From the NCBI GenBank assembly GCA_011364975.1, contig RDOE01000018.1:1-47231 (forward strand): DNA of 47,231 nucleotides, in the 5' to 3' direction. The position numbers and the translations under genes are program-made. Shown here in pieces: positions 21,132 to 21,533 of the stretch. Positions within the stretch are counted from its first letter, which is position 1. Every line of letters begins with the position of its first letter. The stretch comes from Promethearchaeota archaeon. Lineage in GTDB: Archaea > Asgardarchaeota > Lokiarchaeia > Sigyniarchaeales > SOKP01. Below the pieces are notes generated by a model, which did not search any database, had not been told where the DNA came from, and saw only the letters and a list, made by a program, of their open reading frames with translations.

Positions 21132-21158
21132 TCACTTTAACCACATTACTAAAAAGCG

Positions 21159-21161
21159 ATT
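21159..21161 (-). other. 3' bulge of the BHB-like splice motif
   Basis: The bulge is AAU, 3 nt, between the 4-bp CCGG/CCGG helix and the outer stem CGCTTT. Cleavage after its second base (between 21160 and 21159) would end the 5S body at ...CCGGAA. Confidence 0.55.
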
Positions 21162-21308
21162 CCGGGTTCGGATGGGACCGGGTACTATCCTGTATCGCCA
21201 TGACCGTAGCCGAAGCTACAGTTTACAAGTTCCCACAAATCGCAAATCTGCAGTGCGAAGATATAATAGCACTTTTGCAGTACTATTTGCAACGCAAAAC
21301 AGTTTAAC
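21160..21308 (-). rRNA. rrf: 5S rRNA, circularly permuted (predicted 149-nt circle)
   Basis: The identity rests on sequence and structure. Loop C plus helix III read CCCATCCGAACCCGGAA and, after joining, GTTAAAC, the near-universal 5S core. Helix I is GCTACGGT (21203-21210) with ACTGTAGC (21215-21222), one G-U pair. Helix II is GCGATACAG (21190-21198) with CTGTTTTGC (21294-21302), 8 of 9 paired. Helix III is CCGG (21178-21181) with CCGG (21162-21165), followed by the two bulged As. Helix V has GCAAAT (21285-21290) with ATTTGC (21242-21247), and helix IV has AGTGC with GCACT around a 12-nt loop. AGTACTGC sits at the loop E position. Without the TTCG it is 145 nt, longer than the usual 115-125. 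The extra lies mostly at 21223-21241, between helix V and helix I. Confidence 0.85.
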
Positions 21309-21310
21309 TT
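21308..21310 (-). other. 5' bulge of the BHB-like splice motif
   Basis: The bulge is AA(G) on the opposite strand, between CCGG (21311-21314) and GTT, which can pair with AAC at 21166-21168. Cleavage after its second base (between 21309 and 21308) would start the 5S body at GUUAAAC. It is a 2-nt bulge if G pairs and 3-nt if not. Confidence 0.55.
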
Positions 21311-21365
21311 CCGGCGCTTTAGCGTTTCGCTACAGTAAATGTGGTTAACATTTAATTACCAACCA

Positions 21366-21373
21366 TTTTATAA
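21366..21373 (-). promoter_or_regulatory. TATA box of the permuted 5S rRNA gene
   Basis: The minus strand reads TTATAAAA, one of the best TATA boxes in the window. Its centre is about 22-27 nt before 21342-21348, so transcription should start at the outer edge of the terminal stem. The gap between this gene and the peptidase gene (21349-21533) holds nothing else. Confidence 0.7.
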
Positions 21374-21533
21374 GCTCGGCTATTTTCTTCTGAAATGCTT
21401 TACTTATATGGTTATGAGTAATTAGAATAGTTAAAAGTACTAATTAAACTTTTTCATAATGATCAATTAAATTTAAAAAGCATGGTTTTAAATGGACTAA
21501 CATTATTACTATGAAATTAGAACCCTCAAATAA

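Follow-up and report, generated by a model that had tools for sequence, protein, structure and literature searches.

In the permuted tRNA genes of Thermofilum pendens and Cyanidioschyzon merolae, the 3' half lies upstream of the 5' half, and these genes also have a bulge-helix-bulge (BHB) at the junction, a short linker and extra BHB introns (PMC3218864, PMC3978253). A permuted order is shared by the mtPerm-5S genes (RF02547) of brown algal and other protist mitochondria, as described in later papers (Valach 2014, via PMC10085705 and PMC11528492). Also, the same endonuclease and ligase logic acts on archaeal rRNA, with BHB circularization of pre-16S and pre-23S and a permuted 23S in Pyrococcus furiosus (PMC7714728, PMC7758197, PMC12918454). 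The motif of the archaeal splicing endonuclease consists of a 4-nt helix and two 3-nt bulges (PMC7714728), and 5S processing has been stated not to use the BHB circularization route (PMC12918454). The ordinary archaeal 5S rRNA (RF00001) has helices I to V, a loop C reading CCCAUCCGAAC and a length of 120 nt. We know of no BHB processing of mtPerm-5S, and a literature search, with preprints outside its scope, found no paper on a permuted 5S in archaea.

Here, we analysed a stretch of 47,231 nt from a Lokiarchaeia archaeon (contig RDOE01000018.1; hereafter the window), in which a sequence-only reading had placed a circularly permuted 5S gene at 21137-21348 of the minus strand. We could confirm this order, which is far above chance expectation: from 21308 to 21160, the 3' half (helices II 3', V, IV and I 3') comes before the 5' half (Table 1). 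The permuted 5S does lie inside the span first claimed, but the outer nucleotides on each side belong to a processing stem and not to the 5S itself. The gene body is 149 nt long with its intron and 120 nt without it. A UUCG tetraloop stands where ordinary 5S has its free 5' and 3' ends, loop A reads CAU, and helix III (CCGG/CCGG) lies entirely inside the 5' half; from helix III and loop C to the outer stem the sequence reads ...CCCAUCCGAACCCGG-AA^U-CGCUUU (^ marks a cut or a join). Helices I-V, loop C and the 120-nt length are thus those of ordinary archaeal 5S, whereas the gene order, the capped helix I, the BHB flanks and the introns are not. The small hairpin that separates the outer stem from the BHB has counterparts at this position in f1 and f12 relatives (our codes are f for families, G for genomes and L for loci). 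Further upstream, an AT-rich leader hairpin, which lies between the processing stem and the likely promoter, is kept in most f1 relatives and may serve as a leader element that binds a protein. The probable promoter of the gene is the upstream block with the highest conservation; a second TATA-like block beside the outer stem was dropped as a candidate because the AAAAAGTTTAATTA block is better conserved.

Table 1. Features of the permuted 5S locus, in window positions.
Feature	Positions	Strand	Basis
Permuted 5S gene body, predicted excised and circularized segment	21160..21308	-	R1 match, BHB cuts, circle size
3' half, preceding the 5' half: helix III end/loop B (GUUAAAC), helix II 3' strand, helices V and IV, helix I 3'	21215..21308	-	
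Helix I 3' strand ACUGUAGC	21222-21215	-	sequence
UUCG tetraloop closing helix I	21211..21214	-	sequence
5' half: helix I 5' strand GCUACGGU, loop A, helix II 5' strand, helix III and loop C CCCAUCCGAACCCGGAA	21160..21210	-	
Outer processing stem, 5' strand UUAACCACAUUUACU	21334..21348	-	complementary to 21150-21137; fold
Outer processing stem, 3' strand AGUAAUGUGGUUAA	21137..21150	-	sequence; fold
Small hairpin AGCG-AAA-CGCU between outer stem and BHB, on the 5' strand	21321..21331	-	
BHB 5' side: outer helix h AAAGCG (21320-21315), central helix H CCGG (21314-21311), bulge AAG (21310-21308)	21309..21320	-	
BHB 3' side: H CCGG (21165-21162), bulge AAU (21161-21159), outer helix CGCUUU (21158-21153)	21153..21165	-	
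Predicted 29-nt BHB intron in helix IV: H CUGC/GCAG, bulges AA^A and AU^U	21246..21274	-	
Leader hairpin AACCAUAUAAG...CUUAUAAAAUGGUU	21361..21416	-	alignment of upstream regions
Probable promoter: BRE-like GAAAAAG, then TATA-like TTTAATTA	21441..21455	-	inferred from upstream alignment

We built a covariance model of the permuted core (R1) from 11 sequences, including an intron-stripped copy of the window gene, and it matches the window at 21308-21186 with 93.3 bits. A second model (R2), made solely of in-silico spliced and rotated Loki sequences in canonical order, matches the collinear 5S of families f2, f18, f26, f27 and f28 across all 120 positions (best match 84.5 bits, E 6e-17, the E-values of our home-built models R1, R2 and R3 being rough). 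On the window, R2 gives two half matches, 21342-21214 (42.3 bits) and 21213-21139 (40.0 bits), which join within the tetraloop, at 21213/21214. After in-silico BHB excision and intron removal, each of the 23 loci compared at the outset gave a circle of 120-121 nt. The permuted gene has the three-way junction with helices I, II/III and IV/V and the conserved loop C, and compensatory changes in 17 of the 26 core pairs indicate that the permuted locus is under selection as an RNA. In single-sequence folding, the minimum free energy of the circle is not clearly lower than that of shuffles, and the precursor structure containing the BHB lies 2.6 kcal/mol above the minimum.

With the region as encoded, no Rfam family matches the window above its gathering score. 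RF00001 gives a sub-threshold match to the 5' half only, also when each half is scanned separately (21211-21120, 22.7 bits against a gathering score of 38), a shortfall that the permutation would explain, and the mtPerm-5S model has no match in the window, even at E<=10. mtPerm-5S, to which the gene had first been likened, shares the permuted order; it is organellar, and the anatomy described here matches instead that of BHB-processed permuted tRNA genes. A separate normal 5S gene, which would have counted against the permuted one, was found neither by RF00001 nor by R2 over the 3.74-Mb, 99%-complete genome (a draft assembly with 6% contamination), where R2 detects nothing beyond the two halves at the window locus, each in one copy. 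By these searches, the permuted gene is the sole 5S rRNA gene of this archaeon.

The terminal BHB was missed by the sequence-only reading, as was the helix IV insert (21274-21246). Its layout, AAAGCG-CCGG-AA^G ... CCGG-AA^U-CGCUUU, is that of a 4-bp helix with two 3-nt bulges and the right handedness; the predicted cuts fall after AA on both sides (21309/21308 and 21160/21159), and joining at these cuts recreates the canonical GAACCCGGAA^GUUAAAC; in other families the corresponding junction would read ACACGGA^AGTYAAGC (as DNA). The upstream CCGGAA had been taken for the 3' strand of helix III, which comparison with relatives overturned: the flank strand reads CUGG (CTGG in DNA) where helix III 3' strand reads CCAG, and CCGG where it reads CCGG, as in the window. 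Since it changes as the complement, the flank strand is not a copy of the helix III 3' strand but one strand of the BHB, and upstream CCGGAAGUU was rejected in that role for the same covariation.

We then scored the BHB in 126 permuted genes, requiring that the join give the canonical base number and using flanks swapped between families as a control. First, a 4-bp H with 3-nt bulges at the canonical join was found in 78% of the genes, compared to 26% with swapped flanks. Second, a BHB with an outer helix of at least 6 bp was present in 33% of them (control, 0.2%) and one of at least 10 bp in 22% (control, 0.04%). Third, the third pair of H takes all six standard forms (C-G 57, G-C 17, U-A 15, A-U 12, G-U 11 and U-G 5), and the usual 5' bulge is AA^G or AA^A, the usual 3' bulge AA^A, AA^U, GA^U or GA^A. 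In f8, f9, f10, f13, f17, f19, f20, f24 and f25, the best example of each family carries 10-16 bp of outer helix immediately next to H, such as AGUGGUGCGGCAUCC-CGUG-AAA ... CACG-GAA-GGAUGCCGCACCGUU in f10. In some f1 and most f12 genes the outer helix adjoining H has at most 3 bp, so that their BHBs are relaxed, and the strict geometry fits f14 genes poorly. The junction is placed elsewhere in G148 (L130), where it falls in loop C with a BHB-like geometry and a canonical sequence on joining (both read by eye), and in G026 (family f3), whose permuted 5S is opened near loop B.

These features suggest the following route. The precursor would be transcribed 3' half first; its two flanks would pair into a stem, and the BHB would bring the new ends together inside helix III. 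The tRNA splicing endonuclease would cut both bulges (CCGGAA^GUUAAAC and GAACCCGGAA^UCGC), and RtcB, which in archaea ligates BHB cut products, would join the ends of the freed segment into a ring reading ...GAACCCGGAA^GUUAAAC.... With the 29-nt intron of helix IV removed by the same route, the ring would be an intact 120-nt 5S whose helix I is capped by UUCG. The source genome encodes RtcB, uL18 and two endonuclease-domain paralogs, and the latter would be consistent with an alpha-beta enzyme that accepts relaxed motifs. We infer cutting, ligation and intron removal from sequence and give the whole reading (a sole, permuted 5S gene with BHB excision, ring closure by RtcB and a spliced helix IV intron) a probability of about 0.88.

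In most permuted genes, helix I is capped by a UNCG-type or another short loop (some f12 loops, mis-parsed as 3 nt long, were reassigned to UNCG by eye), which favours a closed ring. In this, the Asgard linker differs from that of permuted tRNA genes: in many cases it is a UNCG tetraloop that caps the terminal helix, and tRNA end-processing enzymes are not applicable. The ring might nevertheless be an intermediate, with a nuclease opening the helix I loop after BHB ligation to give an ordinary linear 5S. Indeed, the precursors of permuted tRNAs mature into functional tRNAs and lose their linker (PMC3218864), and archaeal rRNA rings are believed to be relinearized before they function, although 23S rings have now been reported from within ribosomes (PMC12918454). 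However, a linker that is usually a UNCG-type or other 3-6-nt helix I loop looks selected for staying closed, and the circles are already of 5S length, with no leader or trailer left to remove. We regard reopening as unlikely, albeit the most serious of the alternatives, and lean towards a ring that stays closed in the ribosome. We know of no permuted 5S gene in Halobacterium or Sulfolobus. In both, circular 5S reads were observed and interpreted as possible products of degradation (PMC12558985). Among the permuted genes, three loci of genus g15 (L110, L123 and L127, in G135, G136 and G138) have a helix I loop about 30 nt larger, through either an intron or an expansion.

A permuted linear RNA might also be used without ligation, like mtPerm-5S, given that helix III of the window gene lies wholly in the 5' half, forms locally and needs no ligation to pair. 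Yet the cut sites are BHB sites, whose products RtcB would ligate, the join restores the canonical base number around the junction in most genes, and in G148 and G026 the position of the junction makes ligation matter for the structure of the loop. Use of the unligated RNA is thus improbable, and we keep the ligated ring.

Removing the 29-nt insert of helix IV leaves exactly 120 nt and restores ACUGCAAUUGCGAUUUGUGGG, identical to the uninterrupted relative L013. A loop C insert of 30-31 nt (CAUCCGAA[...]CCCRG) occurs in 18 f1 genes, and its BHB cuts restore the canonical loop C exactly. A different helix IV insert, located at the tetraloop, is found in G151 and G158, the latter of which has a loop C insert as well. 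Such inserts could be retained expansions as in Halococcus 5S, where an archaeal ribosome tolerates a large one (PMC7530397), but each has BHB geometry, the cuts restore the sequence of uninterrupted relatives, and inserts of 29-31 nt stand at several separate sites. Retention is accordingly doubtful, and we read the inserts as introns. Two further inserts were seen. In L222 (G035, family f4), a long one lies between the helix III 5' strand and loop C of a gene with otherwise strict BHB flanks. The collinear f28 5S L303 (G212:C15:39893-40044) has about 30 nt in excess near the helix III/II boundary, which may be another 5S intron.

We searched related genomes for the permuted gene. By DNA match or R1, the arrangement is present in 22 of the 24 genomes of the same genus; G001 and G016, of this genus, had no match for a permuted 5S, probably because of assembly gaps. 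Across the phylum, R1 finds the permuted core in 69 genomes, and a model built from 13 non-f1 genes (R3) matches it in 148, of which 8 (f18, f26 and f27; E 5e-5 or weaker) were left out as collinear genes matching weakly. In total, about 140 of 228 genomes and 22 of 28 families have the permuted core, as found with strict filters in genomes that are mostly draft assemblies, and RF00001 scores above cut-off in 64 of the 228, mainly in f28, f2, f18, f26 and f27. The permuted 5S is therefore the majority state across the Asgard phylum and not a single oddity. This breadth, in a ribosomal RNA, again sets it apart from permuted tRNA genes. A pattern scan of all genomes gave archaeal matches only in Lokiarchaeia/Lokiarchaeota and one Baldrarchaeota, being too narrow to exclude other archaeal phyla, and its bacterial matches were at about chance number by our own rough estimate.

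Single-contig chromosomes with the permuted order include G046, G174 and CP070831.1, and G046 (3,326,783 bp) holds two permuted copies. Elsewhere, L277 (G093:C510) has two tandem permuted copies, 157 nt apart. Some collinear 5S matches in permuted-family genomes were set aside: that of G009 is on a plastid contig, those of G140 and G080 are on bacterial-looking contigs, and that of G068 is merely the 5' half of a permuted copy. That the order is an artefact (a mis-assembled contig, several normal 5S genes in tandem array, or a pseudogene whose true counterpart was left unassembled) is very improbable, despite the contaminated draft source, given the identical order in so many genomes and on single contigs, the strong covariation, the plastid or bacterial-looking contigs of collinear matches, and the single copy of each half, which also led us to reject the tandem array.

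The junction common to most families suggests one old permutation. Family f2, collinear and of the same order as the window archaeon, is likely a reversal or a replacement. Within it, L032 (G030, a single-contig 4.4-Mb genome) has three tandem collinear copies with a spacing of about 375 nt. On a contig of uncertain ownership, L136 (G051:C117:8277-8414) is an archaeal 5S in collinear order whose BHB intron occupies the site of the permutation junction (CACG-GAA-CAGUCU...AGACUG-CGUG-AAA-GUUAAAC), and it is possibly a missing link between collinear and permuted 5S. Hypothetically, tandem duplication of such an intron-bearing 5S, followed by loss of the outer halves, would give a permuted gene with the intron stem as flanking stem. 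The wider proposal, for which we see about even odds, is that the only 5S of most Asgard archaea is permanently circular, made by tRNA-splicing enzymes from a permuted gene, and that the permutation is ancient and arose from a 5S containing a BHB intron.

Prediction of 5S is reported to have failed in closed Heimdallarchaeum genomes, among them the 3.32-Mbp Ca. Heimdallarchaeum endolithica (PMC8813620). A permuted 5S in most Asgard archaea would explain why the gene is often not found, there and elsewhere, and annotation pipelines based on RF00001 miss it in most of the phylum. We know of no earlier permuted 5S gene outside organelles, in a cellular chromosome, and of no earlier 5S gene containing a BHB intron; as far as known, this would be the first of each. 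Pre-16S and pre-23S genes are collinear, unlike the Asgard 5S, and splicing-endonuclease processing would now cover each of the three archaeal rRNAs, in the sister group and closest known relatives of eukaryotes. Permuted versus collinear 5S would also be a new phylogenetic character for Asgard archaea, with apparent gains or reversals, and a circular ribosomal RNA becomes directly testable.
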